Virus record (IMG/VR): IMGVR_UViG_3300009705_000172
Location: 1-20,332 of that record
DNA from: a virus
DNA length: 20,332 bases
Strand: one strand, 5' to 3'
In this document: positions 1-20,211 of the stretch, in pieces
Numbering within the stretch: position 1 is the first letter of the stretch
Layout of the letters: every line of letters begins with the position of its first letter
Notes under the pieces: generated by a model
What the model was told of the DNA's origin: nothing
The model's database searches: none
Seen by the model: the letters and a program-made list of their open reading frames with translations, nothing else
Program-made: the position numbers and the translations under genes

Positions 1-601
1 CCCACTCCATTAACTCATGGGTTTGTAGGGGGATGCTCCATAGCCCACGCTTAACATTGTATGAGTTAGGCACACGAATCAATGAAGCCAAATCAAATGT
101 CACCGTTGGGTCAATGCAGTTCATTGATAACAAGTCAGCCCACCTACGGACTGTGTGACGACCAGCACCTTTCAGTATAGAACTATCCATACCAGTGGTC
201 GGAAGGTGTGTCTTAGATAACTTAACCCACACATGGAATCCACCACCGGAAAACCATATGCCATGCAGTATGTCTAATTCCAATAGGTGTTGATGCAACC
301 TACGAACCTCATGGTGAGGCACTGAAGGTGGCACATCAACCCGTCTGCCACCAACAATAGATGTGCAATCAAAATCAAGAACGAAGTGCGGAACAATAGC
401 AGTCTGATAATCTCCCCGTCTGTAGTTGGGGGATTTCAATTCACGGAATCCATACACTGTGGTGTACGCATCCGAAGAGTTCTCCAGACTTGACCACCAC
501 TTGGTGAACTGTTCCTTGTCATGCACGACGCGTCTAAACAGATTAACCTCACGAGGGTAATCAAATGTCAACAACGCTTTGCTTGTTCCACTTCGTTCCA
601 T
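1..601 (-). CDS. Archaeo-eukaryotic primase (AEP), 3' end cut off
   Basis: The visible 200 residues carry the AEP catalytic signatures in order. There is an Asp-x-Asp metal site in FVLDFD (D76, D78), the nucleotide-binding SGGGFH (118-123), and a third motif TFD (D170) followed by RVPNS (176-180). Known AEP enzymes use these residues to make RNA or DNA primers, so the likely role is priming viral DNA replication. The C-terminal part, which might carry a zinc stem or a helicase domain, lies beyond the left edge. The ATG at 601 follows a GGTGGTGA Shine-Dalgarno-like stretch and overlaps the upstream gene by 34 bases; no better in-frame ATG is seen. It is the last visible gene of the replication operon. 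A primase-polymerase with a longer C-terminal domain cannot be excluded. Confidence 0.88.
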   Translation of the reverse strand, partial: MERSGTSKALLTFDYPREVNLFRRVVHDKEQFTKWWSSLENSSDAYTTVYGFRELKSPNYRRGDYQTAIVPHFVLDFDCTSIVGGRRVDVPPSVPHHEVRRLHQHLLELDILHGIWFSGGGFHVWVKLSKTHLPTTGMDSSILKGAGRHTVRRWADLLSMNCIDPTVTFDLASLIRVPNSYNVKRGLWSIPLQTHELMEW

Positions 602-828
602 TTCACCACCCACTTGTTTAATCGTTCTAATAATTCGTGTGTCTCTTTAGGGTCTTGGATATACATTTGGTCAACAACGAATCGTATCTCCCTTTCGTCA
701 TGCACCGCATCAAACCCTCTAGCCTTCTCCGCTTCTCCCATATACACAGACACAGTTCCACCGATTATTTGTCGTTGGAGAAACCATTCAGTTGCTACCG
801 TGAATGCATTGACTTCTAATCCTTTCAT
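568..828 (-). CDS. Small hypothetical protein between nuclease and primase
   Basis: This 86-residue protein has no family I recognise. It starts with an ATG that shares ATGA with the stop of the nuclease gene and has a strong GGGGGAT ribosome site just upstream, so translation is probably coupled. The sequence looks like a small alpha/beta fold: a predicted strand near residues 22-30 and an amphipathic, charged C-terminal helix (about 62-82). It has no signal peptide and no membrane segment. Its position inside the replication operon suggests an accessory role in DNA replication or repair, but that is only inference from context. Confidence 0.7.
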   Translation of the reverse strand: MKGLEVNAFTVATEWFLQRQIIGGTVSVYMGEAEKARGFDAVHDEREIRFVVDQMYIQDPKETHELLERLNKWVVKWNEVEQAKRC

Positions 829-1745
829 TGCACATCCCCCTCTAGGTATATTGCTTCAGCACCATTAGCCACTTCAATGGGATTAGCATACGGTGTGTAC
901 TTGGGGCAAAATGACATGTAATCACAGAACCCACACTTGAACTCCTGACCCTTCGGAACAGTAGCGAAATCCTCTTCTAGATATGACTTAACTAACTTGG
1001 CTAATCGTTTCTTCATGGCAGTGATGGATACTTTCTTTGCTTCCAGTATATCCCAGTGGTCTGCCTTAGGGAATCTCCATCCCCAATGGGTGACAGGTCC
1101 TAAGTCATTGTCCGACACATCAAGAACATATGCGTAGTACGCCATCTCACCTTTCATCTGTGGTAGTTTGTATGTGTTCCACTTGCCCGTTTTCAATTCC
1201 ATCAACGCAACACCATCTTCAGTCTTGAACACACGGTCAATGATACCACGCAGATGTATCTGTTGTTTGCCGTATCCTTCCACCTCCACTTCAACGATAG
1301 CGTCAAGGTCTATTTCATTCGCTACAGGAAGGAAGTCTTCCGGTTTAACACAGTGCTTCAAACGCCTCACATCATTACGAACCATCCAGTCTTGGTTGTC
1401 TTGTTCGCGGTCTGCGTATTCACCTTCAGCATCTGGGAACAACGACCTCAACAACTCATAGCATTTCTTATCGTTGCCTAAGTGTGCATTGTCAATAGCA
1501 TCCTGAATGACTTCGGGTGAGTCTGCACCGTTGATGTAGTACTGTTCCGTACGGTCATGCACATTGCTACCAATGGTGAGGTAGTCATGTGTCTGTTCTT
1601 CTTGTGGACATACCTTGCTGAGCCATAGTTGTTGTTGACACCAGTTGGAGTATGAATCCAGTGTTGATTTACTAACACGAATCATCTTATCATCACCGAT
1701 GATTGGAGTCCACGAGTATGTTGACCCTTCATTCAACACACCCAT
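825..1745 (-). CDS. Cas4/RecB-like PD-(D/E)XK nuclease with Fe-S cysteines
   Basis: This 306-residue protein has the RecB-family nuclease motifs: a GxxxH-type site (G59, H63), the metal-binding Asp in RGIID (D170), E-x-K in MELKTGK (E183, K185), and a following Q/Y motif region (QMKGEMAYYAY, 196-206). One N-terminal Cys (C36) and a C-terminal C-x2-C-x5-C (C271, C274, C280) match the split four-Cys iron-sulfur site known in Cas4 and AddB. The expected activity is exonuclease or endonuclease processing of DNA ends, in recombination, replication or host-DNA breakdown. No cas1, cas2 or CRISPR array is nearby, so an adaptation role is unlikely. The ATG at 1745 forms TGATG with the upstream stop. 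An internal ATG at 1685, preceded by GGTGATGAT, is an alternative start that keeps all motifs. Confidence 0.87.
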   Translation of the reverse strand: MGVLNEGSTYSWTPIIGDDKMIRVSKSTLDSYSNWCQQQLWLSKVCPQEEQTHDYLTIGSNVHDRTEQYYINGADSPEVIQDAIDNAHLGNDKKCYELLRSLFPDAEGEYADREQDNQDWMVRNDVRRLKHCVKPEDFLPVANEIDLDAIVEVEVEGYGKQQIHLRGIIDRVFKTEDGVALMELKTGKWNTYKLPQMKGEMAYYAYVLDVSDNDLGPVTHWGWRFPKADHWDILEAKKVSITAMKKRLAKLVKSYLEEDFATVPKGQEFKCGFCDYMSFCPKYTPYANPIEVANGAEAIYLEGDVQ

Positions 1746-2273: not shown

Positions 2274-4598
2274 TCACCAGTATGTTTTCGGTTGGTGCAA
2301 GTCTATTGCACGCTTGAGGTCCCATCCCATCACATCGTAAATCAGTCTCAATTTCTTACGGACTTGCTTATCAACGATGTGTTCAGCATTCATTGTGAAC
2401 CCGTCTAGTTCAGCGGGGTCACGGTATGCAATAACATCGGTAGTCGGCATTCCTTGTGGCACACCAGCCACATATGTCCACAGCACGCTATCACCTTTGG
2501 CATATGGTTCATCAGGATTCATGTGCCAATTGTAATACCTCGCTGACTTCGCATACCCACCAGATGTTTTGGGGTAATGTTTGTCTGAACGATGTGATGC
2601 ATCAGGTGATGACTCAATCGCTTTGGACAATCGTGTGCGGGTTGATATGTTCTCAACCGCCACATCATTATTGCGAAGCCTAACCACTTCACCCTTGACG
2701 AATGAAGTGATGTCGTTTTCATTATCATTACCACCTAACATGATGAGGACTTGTTTCTGCAAGTCACGAATGAATGGTGGTGTAGAACTGTGCTTCATCT
2801 CAAAGCCAGACACTTTTAATTTACCAGCGTCTTCCTCAGGCCATGATATGATACCTGCATATCTATTCTTAACATCAGCACAGAACCAATACGGCATCCA
2901 CACTTCAGGTTCAGCAATCAATTTTGGATTGCCCGTTTCCTTTTGAATGATGTCAGTGAGTTTGGCTGACACATCATGCAACTCATCCAATGGACACTGG
3001 ACAAAACAACTGTCCGTGTGTCCGAACAACACAGGGTATCCCATGTCTTCGCATTGAGTCCGCAACGAATCCAATGCTGAGCGACCTTGTGATAGAATGG
3101 TTTCGCCAATGATTGTGTCAGCCATGCCGTGACCTAGCGACTCAGTCACCAGACCATACAGCGAAGCCATCACACGCTTGACCGCTTTCTCTAGAATCTT
3201 ATCACCACTGTCCTTTAACTTCTGTCGTTCCGTGAACAGATACTCAATGACAACCGGCAACACACCTTGTTCTTCTTGTTCCCAGTGCGTTCCGTTGGCC
3301 ATTGTTCGTGTAGTTTCAGACGGATTATCTCTTTGAGTAGTCCAACACAAATTGTCGCCCAACATAATTGAAGGATACAAACCTTTAAAATCTAATACTG
3401 CTACCCCCTCGTGGCGACCAGGTGTAGGTGTCATCACAGTCGCACCTTGAACATCACCGCGCTCACGACGACGGTTTCTATGACGAGTAGCGAACTTGTC
3501 ATCCGTGATTCGGCACACCAGACCTCGTGCGAACTTGCCCACTTCAAATGTGGATGTGAATGACACACCGCAGAAACCTACCATGCTTGTGAAGAAATCA
3601 GTAGCCCGTAGATGCTGGTCAATGTTCATCATCAACCTCACATCCTGCACACAATAGTCAGTCAACCGATAGAAATTATCTGTCCAATCATTTGTTAAGT
3701 CAACAGTATCTTTCTTACCTAGTTTCAAATGCTCACCGATGTCACCCAACTTACGGGATGGGAACTGTCCGTTCCCGCTATCCATCCACACACGCTCAAA
3801 CCCAGAACCATCTGAACCTCGGCATGCAGTATCAAACACCCAACGACCTTTGATTGGTTGGTCGGTATGACGGTATCCATCAAACCCTTCACGAACCTTT
3901 GAGACCTGTCCGAGTGGTGACAACCGACGGAAGTTCTTGAACCGTCTAACCATGTGTGGTATGTCAGCCCACATTGCAGCGTGAGCAATCAACATATCAA
4001 AATCCATCTCCTCAATGTATTGAAGGACACCTTCATGCAATGCTTCTTCACTACGATATATGTGTAGTGTGTATCCATCACGGTCTTCACACTGATATGA
4101 TGTCTGGTTCTCACGCCATGCAAAACAAACAGCATCTTCTGTGAAAGAATCAATCGCTGCCCAACACTGTGTGAAGTCATTACCATCAACAGGATTCCAC
4201 TCAATATCAAACCAACACTTGCGAACATTCCATTGAGGAACCTTCGCAGGGTATGTGTCAATCATCCATTGGTCTATGATAGGAACATCTGCTTCGTATG
4301 TTTCGGTAAAGTACTTGCTCATGCTAACCAAATGATATGGATTGACGCATGATATTTTCATAACTTCTTTACCCTTAATGCTCTTAGCGATTTCATCACT
4401 CTCAACTTGTGCGTCGGGGAACTCAATATAGAACGACTCCCAATTGATGTCGGCTTCATCAGTGTTCACCCACATGTAAGGGCGGATGTCTGTGTGAGTA
4501 TGCTGAACCAACACATCATCATCATCCCGATGACGAGTATATATCCCAACACCTTCAGACCCTTTAGGCCAGTAGGTATCAACCAACACGGCAATCAC
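2274..4598 (-). CDS. polB: Family B DNA polymerase with 3'-5' exonuclease
   Basis: This 774-residue protein is about the length of archaeal and viral PolB enzymes. The exonuclease motifs are present: ExoI FDIEW (D131, E133), a diverged ExoII ending in D212 (the usual Asn is Ala207), and ExoIII YCVQD (Y315, D319). The polymerase motifs are motif A LDFKGLYPSI (402-411, D403), motif B KRVMASLYG (474-482, usual Asn replaced by A478), motif C FGHTDS (525-530, D529) and KNRY (577-580). Motif C has His527 where nearly all family B enzymes have Asp. The two metal-binding Asp equivalents, D403 and D529, are kept, so activity is expected. The ATG at 4598 forms ATGA with the clamp gene stop, which fits coupled synthesis of polymerase and clamp. 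It is the likely replicative polymerase of the virus. Confidence 0.95.
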   Translation of the reverse strand: MIAVLVDTYWPKGSEGVGIYTRHRDDDDVLVQHTHTDIRPYMWVNTDEADINWESFYIEFPDAQVESDEIAKSIKGKEVMKISCVNPYHLVSMSKYFTETYEADVPIIDQWMIDTYPAKVPQWNVRKCWFDIEWNPVDGNDFTQCWAAIDSFTEDAVCFAWRENQTSYQCEDRDGYTLHIYRSEEALHEGVLQYIEEMDFDMLIAHAAMWADIPHMVRRFKNFRRLSPLGQVSKVREGFDGYRHTDQPIKGRWVFDTACRGSDGSGFERVWMDSGNGQFPSRKLGDIGEHLKLGKKDTVDLTNDWTDNFYRLTDYCVQDVRLMMNIDQHLRATDFFTSMVGFCGVSFTSTFEVGKFARGLVCRITDDKFATRHRNRRRERGDVQGATVMTPTPGRHEGVAVLDFKGLYPSIMLGDNLCWTTQRDNPSETTRTMANGTHWEQEEQGVLPVVIEYLFTERQKLKDSGDKILEKAVKRVMASLYGLVTESLGHGMADTIIGETILSQGRSALDSLRTQCEDMGYPVLFGHTDSCFVQCPLDELHDVSAKLTDIIQKETGNPKLIAEPEVWMPYWFCADVKNRYAGIISWPEEDAGKLKVSGFEMKHSSTPPFIRDLQKQVLIMLGGNDNENDITSFVKGEVVRLRNNDVAVENISTRTRLSKAIESSPDASHRSDKHYPKTSGGYAKSARYYNWHMNPDEPYAKGDSVLWTYVAGVPQGMPTTDVIAYRDPAELDGFTMNAEHIVDKQVRKKLRLIYDVMGWDLKRAIDLHQPKTYW

Positions 4599-6740: not shown

Positions 6741-8045
6741 TCAATTGTATTGGTCCGTTGATGTGTTGCCGCCTTCTCCTGCTGGCACGACGAATCGTGG
6801 CACAGCATGGATACCGAAGGCAGTTATTTGGGGGACCTCACCATCATTTTCTGTTTGCTTTGCACCTAATCTTCCAAAGATAAGCACGGTTGAGCGTTCA
6901 GCATACGGCTTCCATTGGTCGCCATCCTGATACTCAAACGCATGAAAGTTATCATGTAGTACACCACCGATTCGTGCCTGTAGTTCAGACTTGAAACCAG
7001 TTGGATGTTCCCGTTGTAAATCCCATGATGTGACTCGTAGGTTGTATGTCTTACCAGTCTCATCGTATTCACTCTCCCATCCTTCCTTGAACAATGATGT
7101 GACTTTACCCTTCAGTATAACAAGAGGACCTACGGGGTTGATACCTGGTACTATCTTCATGTTAGCATGGTAATGTTCCAATGTGTCAGTCAATGACACG
7201 AAGTACGGATGGATTGCTGGGTTCACACAGAACTTTTCTGGTGCGAGTTGTGCTTTCAAATCATCCTCAACGAAGTCATTGGTGTACACAATCTCAGTAT
7301 CCCACTTGTTTGGTAGTCGGAATACATCAGCGAAGTCGGGGTTGACTTCTCTATCGGTGCTGTTCGGAACGACCTTGATTCTACATGGTGTGAACATCTT
7401 CGGCGTTGCATCTGGGTTCGGTGAATCCAAACGGAACAACGATACCTTACTACCAAAGTCACTTTCTTTGTTGCCTAGGAAATAGTAATAACGACTCCAC
7501 ATCTCGGGGCGAATTGGGTCTCCCTTGCTAGACCAGTTGCCGGTCTGTAGTAATGCGATTGGTCCTGTTGGTGTGTCCACCTTGAACCAAGGGTCTTTGT
7601 CTGCCGGTTCTTCAGTTGGATGTGTGCCATCTGCTTTAACCAGATTCCAAACACCATTTTCTTTTACAACCTTTGCCACAAGACCTGCTTGTATTGCTTT
7701 GTCTGGTGATGTGTTCCAAGCAGACAGTGCATCAGCACGGACACGCTTTCGCTTGTCTCTAGATTTGGGGTCAACACCTACGATGACTCCTACCCAGTTG
7801 TCTGTCTTGAGTCCGCTGCCACCGCTTCGGCGTTGAACTACCATTCCTTCAGATGCTTCTAATAGAAACTCTTCGTCTTCGTCTTGCCAGTTATCCACGC
7901 TGAACTTGTCGGACAGATACTCAACGAACTTCTGAGTTGCGTCTTCAATGGACAAACCATTGGCATCCGCATACCCTTTCAATCGTTCTAGTACCGAGTC
8001 CGGCAGTGTCGCTTCGCTATTGTTTTTCTTTGGTGCATCAAACAT
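6741..8045 (-). CDS. Candidate OB-fold ssDNA-binding protein
   Basis: This 434-residue protein is not one I can name with certainty. It has an N-terminal helical segment (about 12-45) followed by several beta-rich stretches. Two resemble OB folds: WVGVIVGVDPKSRDKRKRV (84-102) with following strands, and GPLVILKGKVTSLF (near residue 310) with an arm-like insertion and then YNLRVTS. The C-terminal part ends in a polar, Gly-rich tail, as in many SSB/RPA proteins. Position supports the idea: it lies between the clamp loader (eight-base overlap) and the RecA-like ATPase, where viral replication modules often place an ssDNA-binding protein. The start has a GGAGAG site. A structural or unknown replication protein remains possible. 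Confidence 0.45.
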   Translation of the reverse strand: MFDAPKKNNSEATLPDSVLERLKGYADANGLSIEDATQKFVEYLSDKFSVDNWQDEDEEFLLEASEGMVVQRRSGGSGLKTDNWVGVIVGVDPKSRDKRKRVRADALSAWNTSPDKAIQAGLVAKVVKENGVWNLVKADGTHPTEEPADKDPWFKVDTPTGPIALLQTGNWSSKGDPIRPEMWSRYYYFLGNKESDFGSKVSLFRLDSPNPDATPKMFTPCRIKVVPNSTDREVNPDFADVFRLPNKWDTEIVYTNDFVEDDLKAQLAPEKFCVNPAIHPYFVSLTDTLEHYHANMKIVPGINPVGPLVILKGKVTSLFKEGWESEYDETGKTYNLRVTSWDLQREHPTGFKSELQARIGGVLHDNFHAFEYQDGDQWKPYAERSTVLIFGRLGAKQTENDGEVPQITAFGIHAVPRFVVPAGEGGNTSTDQYN

Positions 8046-8994
8046 TTGTATTCTCTCCTTTGTTTTTATCCATCAATGTTGCTACAAAATAATCGTAGTA
8101 AGAGTCATCGCCTGCTGGCCATGTATATACTCTCTCTACAAAATCACCCCATACAACAAGGAAGGAATAGTATTGCTCGGGTGTTAGACCTAGCGAGTAT
8201 GTTTTGTCACGCAACTGTTTCATCACATGTAATCGTGGCAGACCTTTGGTTGCCACCTTGCGTAATTCAGATGCTAATGATGTCCATTCACCTGCAGCGA
8301 TAGACATTGCTGGGTTGGTGAAGTCGGATTGTTCAACCATCAAACGGATACCGAGAGCATCTGGTGTCTGCTGTAATGATTGTAGAATGTCAACGGCTGA
8401 GCGTAGGTCGCCAGCACACACTTGATTCAAGTGTCGGAAGTCAACAAACCATTCTTCGGGTAGTGATTCTCGGTCTGCAATGTGAGAAAACAATTGGTAT
8501 GCTGAATCATCATCGGCAGGTCTAAACATATACACCATGCATCTAGATTTAAGTGCGGGGATGATTGCCGATTCATCATTAGCAGTTAAGATAAACAATG
8601 ATTGGTCAACACATTGCTCCATCGTATTCCTCATGGCTTCTTGTGCTGGCTTCGTTAGACCATCTGCTTCGTCAAATAGAATTGCTTTGCGTGGACATCC
8701 CATGCCACCTTGCTGTGCAGTCCGCTTGACTTCATTCCTAACGAATGCTATGCCTCGGTCATCCGATGCATTGAATTGAATGTAATTGATTGGTGAATAC
8801 ATATCGCCAAGCATTTGACGAGCAATAACACCGGCTGCTGTTGTCTTGCCAGTACCAGGAGGCCCGACCAATAGAATCGCTGCAGGATATTTACCCCGTT
8901 CCCTCCATTCTTCACAGTCAGCACGGAAATCTGGACACCCCACCATTTCTTCAATCGTATTTGGTCGGTATATTTCACGCCATTGTTTTCCCAT
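8038..8994 (-). CDS. rfcS: Replication factor C small subunit (clamp loader)
   Basis: Clear AAA+ clamp loader of 318 residues. It starts WREIYRP, then Walker A GPPGTGKT (44-51), the RFC box FNASDDRG (74-81), Walker B LFDEAD (106-111), sensor 1 LTAND, the SRC arginine-finger motif (150-152), and sensor 2 GDLRSAV (195-201). It would load the viral sliding clamp onto primed DNA, probably as a homo-oligomer or together with host RFC. I choose the ATG at 8994 over the GTG (9003) and ATG (9000). It has GGTGAT at a normal distance and lies 42 bases from the TATA box, the same distance as at the promoter near 19529. It is the first gene of the replication operon. Confidence 0.95.
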   Translation of the reverse strand: MGKQWREIYRPNTIEEMVGCPDFRADCEEWRERGKYPAAILLVGPPGTGKTTAAGVIARQMLGDMYSPINYIQFNASDDRGIAFVRNEVKRTAQQGGMGCPRKAILFDEADGLTKPAQEAMRNTMEQCVDQSLFILTANDESAIIPALKSRCMVYMFRPADDDSAYQLFSHIADRESLPEEWFVDFRHLNQVCAGDLRSAVDILQSLQQTPDALGIRLMVEQSDFTNPAMSIAAGEWTSLASELRKVATKGLPRLHVMKQLRDKTYSLGLTPEQYYSFLVVWGDFVERVYTWPAGDDSYYDYFVATLMDKNKGENTNV

Positions 8995-9000
8995 TTCCAT

Positions 9001-9036
9001 CACCGCATTTTAGGTGGTAATTGAGAGGTATATAAA
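9001..9036 (-). promoter_or_regulatory. Promoter of the replication operon (copy A of shared motif)
   Basis: On the minus strand a TATA box TTTATATA (9036-9029) is followed by CCTCTC, five free bases, and CCACCTA (9017-9011). The same arrangement with the same spacing occurs at 17036 and 19529. A start site roughly 26 bases after the TATA centre would lie near 9006, giving a short leader before the clamp loader. The CACC at 9001-9004 and GGTG at 9013-9016 (plus strand) can be read as a loose inverted repeat. Confidence 0.82.
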
Positions 9037-15288: not shown

Positions 15289-16992
15289 TCAAAGGTTTAG
15301 AACCTCGCTTGCCGTTGGAATTGCATTCAGTGTGTGAAGGCCTTCTTCGTTGATGAACGCCTTCATGTCGCTGATGTCGTTTTTCTTAATCTTATCCACA
15401 CCAGATGATTCTTGGTAATCGCCAACTGTTTGGTGTAGGATACCAGTCATCATGTCGTGGACAGTACCGAGACGACGGCTGAGTGTTTCAAACCCAATAG
15501 CACGACCAGACAATTTTTGTTTTCCATCAGTCCATTCTGGCTTGTGTGTCAAAGCACCATTCAAGACATTGTATGCGTGGTAAAGTGTGTTGGATTGGTC
15601 ATCGCTGACATTGACCCAATCACTCTTAGGATTTGTCCACCCATCAAGAGCCAGTCGCCACATGTGACCACCAGTTACTTTTTCGCCAACCACCTTGTTG
15701 TTCACGATTTCAGGTTTCTTGCTAGGCCATGACATCAATCCTTTCTGTTCAGATAATGTGAGCAATCGTTCAAACAATTGAACATCAACTGGTAGGTGTT
15801 GCATAAACTCCATCTCAACAAGTGAACGCTGTGCATCAACAATCACATCATTGATTTTACCAGCGAAGGTATCCCAGTTGCGGTCTTGCATAGCACCTTT
15901 CTTGTGACGAACAGATTGAATCGTTTGTGACCCACCCATTATCGCTAGGTTAGTACAATACACACGAGTAGCCACCGCTTGAACGGACAATGCTTTCGTT
16001 CCATCAAGTGAGTTGTTGACACTGAATCCATATCGGTATAGTCCATCAAGTGACTTCGCTGATTCATTCATCAATCCTAAGTCCAACCATTTGTGTCCAC
16101 CTTCGCTCAATGCTTCTCTTGCTGCTTCTCTTGTCTGTGCTGCTTGTGACACATCACAATCCATTCGTGCCTTAGCACCTTCGTTGTATGCTGTGACTCT
16201 TGCTTTCCATCCATTCTGTGCTGCCAAGTCCAACATCGGGTCATACACTACAGGGTATGCCAATGGGAAGTAATCCTTACCACATGTTGATAGCAATGCA
16301 CCTTCAGGTCTTTGTTCAGATGCGTATGACGGATTGAATACACCGAATGCGATTGCATTACCCTTTGCATCTGCTAGTGGTGCAAAGGTAGGTGCCATTT
16401 CATCGTTATCCATGTGTGCTGTGAACAATGGCTTCATAACTGGAGTGAATCTCCAATCATGTGCTGCCATACCTTCACGACCACCAGCAGTCAAAGCACC
16501 ATCCCAGATTTCATCGTTGCCACCGACATTCATAGTGCCAATGTCAATACCACCTGTGGTAGTAGGCACGACTGTATCATCAAAGTCGTCAGGTTCATCG
16601 TTGTTGGTGCTACCAAAGCCAAACAAGTCCGGTTTGGTTGCTGCCGCTTTCTGTTCCTTAACGAGGAACTTGATGTTGGCAGATGCTAACCCATGTTCTA
16701 ATGCTTCGCATACTTCAATGTGGTGTGGTTCAATAATGACTGCTGCTTTGCCACCGCTGAATTGCTTTTGAGGACTATATGCCCCATGTGTTAATTCAAC
16801 ACCTTGAACAAGGAATGCTGTCAATCCATCTGATGTCTTGGTCTGTGACACAAGAGCATCTCGGGGAATCCAAACGGTTCGTGTTCCTGACACCGCTTCG
16901 TACTGCACCTTAGTTTGCTTGTCGTTGCTTTCTTCTATCATACCAATTATTACCAATCGGTCTTCGCTTATTTTATCATCGTTGTTAAACAT
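15289..16992 (-). CDS. DUF932-like phage protein with internal KPDLF motif
   Basis: The ATG at 16992 follows the promoter and a GGTGGAG site; the longer frame to 17046 would run through the TATA box and is rejected. The 567-residue protein matches DUF932 (phage/plasmid-like TIGR03299 type) in its C-terminal two thirds, with the typical RVYCTN segment (343-348) followed by basic HKK, and long helices beyond. The N-terminal 110 residues form a small beta-rich domain. Between them, an acidic disordered linker carries KPDLFGFG (120-127), a member of the KP[DN][LI]F set. The DUF932 function is unknown. It is the first gene after its own promoter, which suggests strong or early expression. Confidence 0.75.
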   Translation of the reverse strand: MFNNDDKISEDRLVIIGMIEESNDKQTKVQYEAVSGTRTVWIPRDALVSQTKTSDGLTAFLVQGVELTHGAYSPQKQFSGGKAAVIIEPHHIEVCEALEHGLASANIKFLVKEQKAAATKPDLFGFGSTNNDEPDDFDDTVVPTTTGGIDIGTMNVGGNDEIWDGALTAGGREGMAAHDWRFTPVMKPLFTAHMDNDEMAPTFAPLADAKGNAIAFGVFNPSYASEQRPEGALLSTCGKDYFPLAYPVVYDPMLDLAAQNGWKARVTAYNEGAKARMDCDVSQAAQTREAAREALSEGGHKWLDLGLMNESAKSLDGLYRYGFSVNNSLDGTKALSVQAVATRVYCTNLAIMGGSQTIQSVRHKKGAMQDRNWDTFAGKINDVIVDAQRSLVEMEFMQHLPVDVQLFERLLTLSEQKGLMSWPSKKPEIVNNKVVGEKVTGGHMWRLALDGWTNPKSDWVNVSDDQSNTLYHAYNVLNGALTHKPEWTDGKQKLSGRAIGFETLSRRLGTVHDMMTGILHQTVGDYQESSGVDKIKKNDISDMKAFINEEGLHTLNAIPTASEVLNL

Positions 16993-17004
16993 ACAAATCG
17001 TTCT

Positions 17005-17036
17005 CCACCATAGGTGGGTGACGAGAGGTATATAAA
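17005..17036 (-). promoter_or_regulatory. Promoter of the DUF932-like gene (copy B), with operator-like dyad
   Basis: On the minus strand: TTTATATA (17036-17029), CCTCTC, five free bases, CCACCTA (17017-17011), as in the other two copies. Here the plus strand reads CCACC-ATA-GGTGG (17005-17017), a perfect five-base dyad with a three-base centre. With a start site about 26 bases from the TATA centre, the dyad would span roughly -11 to +2, where a repressor could block RNA polymerase. Its right-hand arm on the transcript (GGTGG) is also the ribosome site. Confidence 0.83.
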
Positions 17037-17055
17037 GCCCGTTCAATAATTGGGG

Positions 17056-19543: not shown

Positions 19544-20089
19544 TCATGCGTTCAACCCCGTGAATAAGTCAGGCTTCTCGCATGGATACATCCACCAAGG
19601 TACTACTGTTCCTCGTTGCCACTTAGCAATGTCTTTCTTTTCGGTGCTATAGTATCTACGATATGCTTTGACAGCATCATCGTCTTTGCACTCATCAGGC
19701 ATTGCTTGTGCGAATGGAGTCAGCCCGACATCAGGATAATCATTCATAAACAATAACATAGTATGCATTTCGTCAACTGCTTCAACACATGCATGTGTTT
19801 TACCATACCGTTTCTTGAACTCCATGCCAAGACCCATTGCGTGACTCCATAGCCATGTGAAGTTAGATTGGGATTCCATTACCCATCTAGTGCATGGGTG
19901 ATTAGGCCACCCACCACGCCAAGGTTTCTTGGATGTGGCAGTCAATGGCATTTGCTCGTCGGTAGCACCGTAGTGCCGTAAGACTGATGCCATCATTTGT
20001 CCAGATTCTATTATCATTTTCCCAACATGTTTGTCACACATGTAGCGCGCTGCTATTACAGGGTCATTGTCTAACACGAATATATTCAT
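19544..20089 (-). CDS. Conserved phage protein of the MNIFVLD type with C-terminal KPDLF
   Basis: The ATG at 20089 is preferred (GGTGGTGG just upstream; a GTG at 20098 is the longer option). The 181-residue protein belongs to a family I recognise from many marine phages: MNIFVLD, CDKH (18-21), NHPC (63-66), GLTPFAQAMPDE (122-133), AYRRYY (142-147). Its function is not known to me. Conserved His, Cys and Asp residues suggest an enzyme. The C-terminus reads CEKPDLFTGLNA, carrying the KP[DN][LI]F motif as an apparent add-on after the family core. It forms TGATG with the preceding zinc-ribbon gene. Confidence 0.78.
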   Translation of the reverse strand: MNIFVLDNDPVIAARYMCDKHVGKMIIESGQMMASVLRHYGATDEQMPLTATSKKPWRGGWPNHPCTRWVMESQSNFTWLWSHAMGLGMEFKKRYGKTHACVEAVDEMHTMLLFMNDYPDVGLTPFAQAMPDECKDDDAVKAYRRYYSTEKKDIAKWQRGTVVPWWMYPCEKPDLFTGLNA

Positions 20090-20211
20090 CACCACCACCC
20101 CGTTGGTTGCTTATCCCATTCTTTCTTACAGTCCTTACACACATGATGTGAGTCGTCTGCTTGTATGTAGCATGTGGCTTTTGTATCTTTGCAGAACTCG
20201 CACTTAGTCAT
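20089..20211 (-). CDS. 40-residue zinc-ribbon protein
   Basis: A complete short gene: ATG directly after the upstream stop (TGAATG), GAGGTG ribosome site, stop overlapping the next ATG as TGATG. The 40 residues hold C4-x2-C7 and C25-x2-C28, with an extra C14 and His22-His23, a classic small zinc-ribbon layout. Its end is Trp-rich (PTGWW). Likely a zinc-binding protein of unknown partner. Confidence 0.72.
   Translation of the reverse strand: MTKCEFCKDTKATCYIQADDSHHVCKDCKKEWDKQPTGWW

Follow-up and report, generated by a model that had tools for sequence, protein, structure and literature searches.

The family B DNA polymerase (PolB) of an IMG/VR virus record carries His in place of the first Asp of motif C, and this His marks a wide clade of viral polymerases in which the second Lys of the KKRY motif has been replaced by Asn. 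By analogy with an engineered Pfu polymerase, the two jointly altered positions correspond to the partners of a salt bridge. We consider it fairly probable (about 0.6) that the polymerase is a functional replicase whose minor-groove contact has been rewired.

The sequence analyzed (hereafter, the window) is the 20,332-base linear IMG/VR virus record IMGVR_UViG_3300009705_000172. The features considered here are as follows.

2274..4598, minus strand: PolB of 774 aa with a GTG start, from the ORF and its translation
4200..4208, minus strand: ExoI, DIE; both carboxylates (D131, E133) kept
3951..4001, minus strand: ExoII, FDMLIAHAAMWADIPHM; D212 kept, A207 in place of Asn
3642..3656, minus strand: ExoIII, YCVQD; Y315 and D319 kept
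3366..3392, minus strand: motif A, DFKGLYPSI; metal ligand D403 kept
3213..3227, minus strand: fingers R458 and K462, both kept
3153..3179, minus strand: motif B, KRVMASLYG; K474 and Y481 kept, A478 in place of Asn
3009..3026, minus strand: motif C, FGHTDS; H527 in place of the first Asp, D529 kept (read by codon)
2859..2870, minus strand: KNRY, residues 577-580; N578 in place of the second Lys of KKRY
2-613, minus strand: partial ORF with a weak primase (PriS) match
825-1745, minus strand: PD-(D/E)XK nuclease, from a profile match
8038..9003, minus strand: clamp loader of the RFC small-subunit type, from profile matches; the query that reached the distant relatives
15289-17046, minus strand: DUF932 match (E=2.5e-6); the 110 kb contig of L003 has a similar gene
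19544-20098, minus strand: pyrimidine dimer DNA glycosylase family (PF03013, E=2.3e-6)

The window PolB matched PF00136 with E=2.3e-23 (83.2 bits against a curated cut-off of 23) and phrog_262 with E=6.6e-58, and its match to PF03175 was weak (E=0.086). The family B residues D403, D529 and K474 are present, together with the exonuclease carboxylates D131, E133, D212 and D319. The first Asp of motif C (YxDTD), which is usual though not universal in PolBs, is absent. The minus-strand codons at 3009-3026, TTC GGA CAC ACG GAC AGT, encode F525, G526, H527, T528, D529 and S530, and the CAC codon of H527 lies at 3018-3020. Thus, an earlier note on this DNA, which had read motif C as FGHTDS with His527 for the first Asp, was confirmed codon by codon. 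Its statements that motif B and ExoII lack their Asn (A478 and A207), and that D529 and D403 are retained, were also correct for the window PolB. N578 did not appear among the changes listed there, and it turned out to be the informative partner of H527. Family B polymerases without the first motif C Asp are already described as exceptions in the portion of Kazlauskas et al. that was available (PMC7544198).

An AlphaFold model of the window PolB was predicted from 57 rows (pLDDT 89.8, pTM 0.81); a model from 12 rows (pLDDT 68) was set aside. The predicted model aligned over its whole length with RB69 gp43 (1ig9_A; Z 29.7, 704 residues aligned, 3.2 A) and E. coli Pol II (3k5o_B; Z 28.1, 682 residues aligned, 3.9 A). 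In a Foldseek search with the same model, archaeal PolBs ranked first among the matches listed (TM 0.76-0.79). As far as the model goes, the PolB fold of the window protein is complete, and it has the fold of RB69 gp43 in common.

A scan of the IMG/VR viral contigs gave 12 relatives of the window PolB at 58-70% identity. In the alignment, all 12 possess GHTDS, the motif B Ala and the ExoII Ala. When the viral contigs were searched with a DNA pattern encoding L[FY]GHTDSCF, these 12 were the only ones hit. Together with the window, they form six lineages at <80% identity. All 13 genes use CAC for the His, and thus silent variation is absent at that codon. In the L005/L012 pair, dN was 0.011 and dS was 0.147, which indicates purifying selection on the PolB gene. 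The earlier note had named close relatives with DTDS, and a His arising from a sequencing error or standing as a lone variant, as what would overturn its reading; such relatives were looked for, and the relatives carry GHTDS instead. Since this holds in 12/12 near relatives and in distant loci with His, we rejected a sequencing error or a lone variant. One of the 13 near PolB genes (L004:6548-8824) contains an in-frame TAG where the near-identical L003 has a sense codon; this is either an assembly error or a nonsense variant.

Scans with the PolB reached the window subclade alone, and when haloviruses were included in the query, Asp-type relatives were found; Asp was present in all four motif C sequences read among six relatives from that extended query. 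The clamp-loader scan reached further contigs. A PolB match was obtained in 6 of the 14 that were searched, all outside the window subclade, and motif C contained His in five of these six and Asp in one (L086). The five His-type sequences (L075/L076 and L077/L078/L087) all have GHTDS; their identity to the window is about 26-35%, with L077, L078 and L076 represented in this comparison by the near copies L094 and L075. Thus, the clamp-loader scan led to distant His-type PolBs, and we rejected the idea that the trait is confined to near relatives.

Two large scans were then considered, whose query alignments stop short of motif C, leaving the motif no influence on which sequences were retrieved. 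In the first scan, His was found in 70/70 loci reaching motif C, from the best 80 of 548 relatives with 10 loci that end before the motif set aside. In the second, ranked by the window, it was found in 68/68 such loci, from the best 80 of at least 543 relatives with 12 set aside. The two scans overlap, and the number of loci with a readable motif C, 138, is their sum. Pooled with the other loci, they gave 156 rows, 130 distinct proteins (counted on a fixed-length alignment with insertions removed) and 75 clusters at 90% identity. In contrast, Asp was present at motif C in all 60 outgroup rows, namely 10 phage and halovirus PolBs, L086 and 49 bacterial Pol II sequences; the bacterial rows were collected with a pattern that includes the ExoII residue, where they are biased, and motif C lies outside the pattern. 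The phage PolBs L057:3734-6244, L038 and L086 have an unusual two-Asp motif C, YIDTDG or YIDTDS. A His-type viral PolB was also seen on L174 (NZTP01000016.1), a contig in a MAG named Altibacter and the sole close match of 50 in the genome scan; it is probably a misbinned virus contig.

Trees were built with the trait columns left out. The His rows formed one branch in each: 35 of 54 rows (SH-aLRT 100), 25 of 38 rows (SH-aLRT 100) and, with the polymerase domain only, 17 of 36 rows (support 100/98). A single change between His and Asp suffices on the 54-row and 38-row trees. The suggestion that the substitution may mark a clade is thus strongly supported by the scans and by the placement of the sequence in PolB trees, which the earlier note had asked for, and the clade extends far beyond the near relatives. 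That note had also asked whether H, A and A are fixed together. His is fixed throughout, whereas the Ala residues of motif B and ExoII vary outside the window subclade, and we therefore rejected H, A and A as a single signature. Motif B of the His clade has Asn in 52 of 98 rows, Ala in 43 and gaps in 3. The Ala is confined to the window subclade, the split-PolB branch and L304, with Asn elsewhere, and this pattern needs three changes on the 38-row tree. The ExoII Asn position is Y, F, W or A within the clade.

A search of the 54-row alignment for columns fixed in His rows and rare in Asp rows found 16. The cleanest of these besides 527 was 578, with Asn in 35/35 His rows and Lys in 19/19 Asp rows. 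In the wider set, H527 occurs with N578 in 88/88 readable His rows and in 75/75 of the clusters at 90% identity, and Asp occurs with Lys in 60/60 outgroup rows; no His-clade member with K578 was found among the 88. A profile alignment places Asp and Lys at the two positions in E. coli Pol II, KOD and Pfu. In the 36-row alignment, the Asp group conserves 28 columns of the polymerase domain, and of these 419, 527 and 578 are the only three that the His clade has lost in every row. In the second scan, Asn was present at 578 in 67/67 readable rows despite drift of its neighbors (TGTNKN, ATRNRN, GGKNLY); L335 has His at 527 and a gap at 578. The Tyr of KKRY, the residue that bonds the primer end in RB69, is replaced by Asn (KNRN) in 26 of the 88 readable His rows, which are L075-like and split rows, and the second scan gave the same Asn in the split rows and L075-like rows read, except L304. 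GHTDS or AHTDS together with Asn for Lys is therefore a simple mark for this PolB group.

The pair has a counterpart in a published contact, which comes from a binary complex of an engineered Pfu variant. According to the part of that report available, Lys593 of Pfu-E10 (equivalent to RB69 Lys706 and phi29 Lys498) reaches into the minor groove, where it bonds to O2 of the penultimate primer base, and a salt bridge with Asp541 orients this Lys (PMC3733885). Since the C-motif is numbered 539-544 there with the second invariant Asp at 543, Asp541 is the first motif C Asp, that is, the position of His527. Around this site in RB69, Y708 lies at the primer end, K705 and R707 are on the backbone, and N564 of motif B reaches the beta phosphate through water, as given in sections of PMC3564110. 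Thus, by analogy with Pfu-E10, residues 527 and 578 are the two ends of the salt bridge.

On this analogy, the ancestor of the clade would have changed the first motif C Asp to His and the second KKRY Lys to Asn. In ordinary PolBs, the Asp-Lys salt bridge would hold the Lys in the minor groove next to the penultimate primer base. In the His clade, this acid-base pair would be replaced by His and Asn, presumably in contact with each other. The reading of the freshly made primer end would be changed, and mismatch extension or primer-end discrimination may be altered. Since both metal-binding Asp residues, the fingers Arg and Lys and the four exonuclease carboxylates are kept, the enzyme should, judging from its sequence, both polymerize and proofread. 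The His clade is thus a natural double mutant of the published contact, intact elsewhere, and it can separate the metal role of the first Asp from its minor-groove role, a point on which papers differ.

A functionally neutral swap, in which His-Asn does the job of Asp-Lys and was fixed by descent while fidelity and metal use stayed ordinary, would also leave a single origin with no later variation in the rows read, which is what inheritance alone gives, and the rest of the active site is kept as it would require. Nevertheless, we find it doubtful: the KKRY neighbors drift while N578 and H527 do not, and the pair is thus under constraint, although this shows importance and not a different function. 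Altered metal use, with a preference for Mn2+ or another metal once the first Asp is gone, comes second to the minor-groove reading and is possible but unlikely. In its favor, a phi29 study reportedly names the first motif C Asp a metal ligand in its title, and Dpo2, a PolB2 without this Asp, is more active with Mn2+ than with Mg2+, according to the available part of PMC8764526. However, the same part of that paper has the second motif C Asp coordinating the metal and the first oriented away, and metal binding does not explain the joint change at N578. The earlier note had proposed that metal use could be altered; the metal-ligand Asps that it pointed to are indeed kept, but as the main effect this became less likely in view of the outward orientation (PMC8764526), the salt bridge to Lys (as partly seen in PMC3733885) and the Asn in every readable His row.

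It is very hard to accept that the protein is an inactivated or translesion polymerase, as PolB2 was formerly thought to be. The first Asp is lost as in PolB2, and so is the motif B Asn in the window subclade, but the exonuclease motifs are kept, unlike in PolB2, the gene is under purifying selection, a clamp loader gene is nearby, and the protein is the sole PolB found in the contigs searched. In 13 longer contigs (85-110 kb), a family B search detected one PolB locus each, in one case as two halves, and no second PolB, although the contigs may be incomplete; on this basis we rejected another PolB as the real replicase. A missing first motif C Asp is thus no proof of a dead polymerase.

Tentatively, the His-Asn pair might be an adaptation: through a different minor-groove contact, the penultimate base pair would be checked less strictly with proofreading still active, or the contact would suit a primer or base chemistry peculiar to these viruses. 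If the check were relaxed, mismatched, damaged or odd primer ends would be extended more easily. If the pair were an adaptation, loss of the Asp-Lys bridge would be a repeated route by which family B polymerases alter how they check the new strand, and PolB2 and the His clade would each have followed it independently. A 2-aminoadenine genome, which would change the minor groove, was considered as a cause and set aside, because no adenylosuccinate synthetase was matched in the 13 longer contigs; other modifications are possible.

The longer contigs also bear on the identity of the clade. When 67 of the 104 ORFs listed for the 110 kb contig of L003 were scanned, the matched families listed included terminase, portal and major head. 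The long ORFs of this contig lie mostly on the plus strand for 57 kb, mostly on the minus strand to 100 kb, and on the plus strand again in the last 10 kb; apart from this end, the layout is one of two opposed gene blocks, as expected of magroviruses. The terminase had bacterial phage matches at 20-27% among the matches listed, and the ORF taken for the portal had no match. A chaperonin was found in 7 of the 13 longer contigs. That of the 110 kb contig is of the thermosome type (group II; L064:17598-19265, NF041082 with E=7e-112, below its cut-off), and 15 records matched it with weak similarity. The Cpn60_TCP1 match was far better in the L003 and L075 contigs than in the five other chaperonin contigs. 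From the RFC small subunit, the weak PriS match, the thermosome and the resemblance to magroviruses, the hosts of these marine-type viruses are probably archaea.

A related branch of the clade carries PolB as two ORFs, split between motifs B and C, in 25 loci of the first scan and 30 of the second (L142-L173 and part of L309-L355), and the window subclade is sister to these two-ORF PolBs on the 54-row and 38-row trees. The second ORF begins at a Met that lies one to a few codons ahead of [KRDQE][VI][VI]Y[GA]HTDS. This places the two metal-binding Asp residues on separate chains, and 73-1933 bases separate the ORFs in the 25 loci. One gap ORF (L173:4507-5127) matched MUG113 and T5orf172, which we take to be endonuclease domains of the GIY-YIG type and which hint that a mobile element may be involved. 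Pfam gave no match for four further gap ORFs.

Among known viruses, the magroviruses (Magrovirales, the 'Magro' group of Kazlauskas et al. 2020) are similar to the window clade in having large tailed-virus contigs with their own PolB and clamp loader. ICTV profiles give them 90-110 kb and a virus-encoded replisome (PMC10768690, PMC12999244), and the figure legend for YSH_150918 lists PolB-NTD/CTD (PMC10768690). Thus, a split PolB occurs in this magrovirus and in the related branch of the window clade, whereas the window PolB is one ORF. From contig size, replisome and split PolB, the clade looks magrovirus-like. We found no paper on a motif C His in family B polymerases; the available text of Kazlauskas et al. 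on Magro and histidine is silent, and their Figure 4 logos may show it (PMC7544198).

By sequence, the nearest named relatives are the B5/halovirus (HVTV-1 and HCTV-1 type) and T4-like PolBs, at 20-25% identity to the window. The halovirus and T4-like rows examined all have Asp in motif C, Lys in KKRY and Asn in motif B, from which the window PolB differs. Archaeal PolB2 (Dpo2 of Sulfolobus) is similar to the window PolB in that the first motif C Asp, the second KKRY Lys and the motif B Asn are all lost. However, PolB2 has His at the Tyr position and Ile at the Asp position, where the window has Phe525 and His527, and its exonuclease motifs are lost, whereas ExoI-III are kept in the window. 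As described in the part of PMC8764526 available, PolB2/Dpo2 has HxxxD and no exonuclease, yet its primer extension is comparable to that of the replicase Dpo1, and it extends mismatches strongly. Our PolB2-like set consisted of proteins from four haloarchaeal plasmids that are annotated as type B polymerases and were assigned to PolB2 by their motifs and lost exonuclease motifs. All four have HGIVDS and L-T-[RK]-Y, that is, Ile for Asp, Thr for Lys and Val for the motif B Asn. On the 36-row tree, PolB2 as the sister of the His clade was not rejected (AU p=0.133), and the sharing of lost columns by the two groups was not significant (P=0.28). Thus, the parallel with PolB2 is suggestive only; in the portion of Kazlauskas et al. 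available, PolB2 is assigned to a different major clade (PMC7544198).

In a PF03175 search of 369 genomes, one piPolB-like ORF was found that, aligned by eye, has apparently lost the Asp (to Thr) and kept a Lys. Thus, the coupling between 527 and 578 is not absolute. The first motif C Asp is absent from piPolB and PolB_SITDG as it is from the window PolB, and these are separate lineages, as far as the available part of PMC7544198 describes them. The residue that replaces the Asp differs among them: it is hydrophobic in PolB_SITDG according to the same part of that source, Thr in the one piPolB-like ORF, and His in the window PolB.
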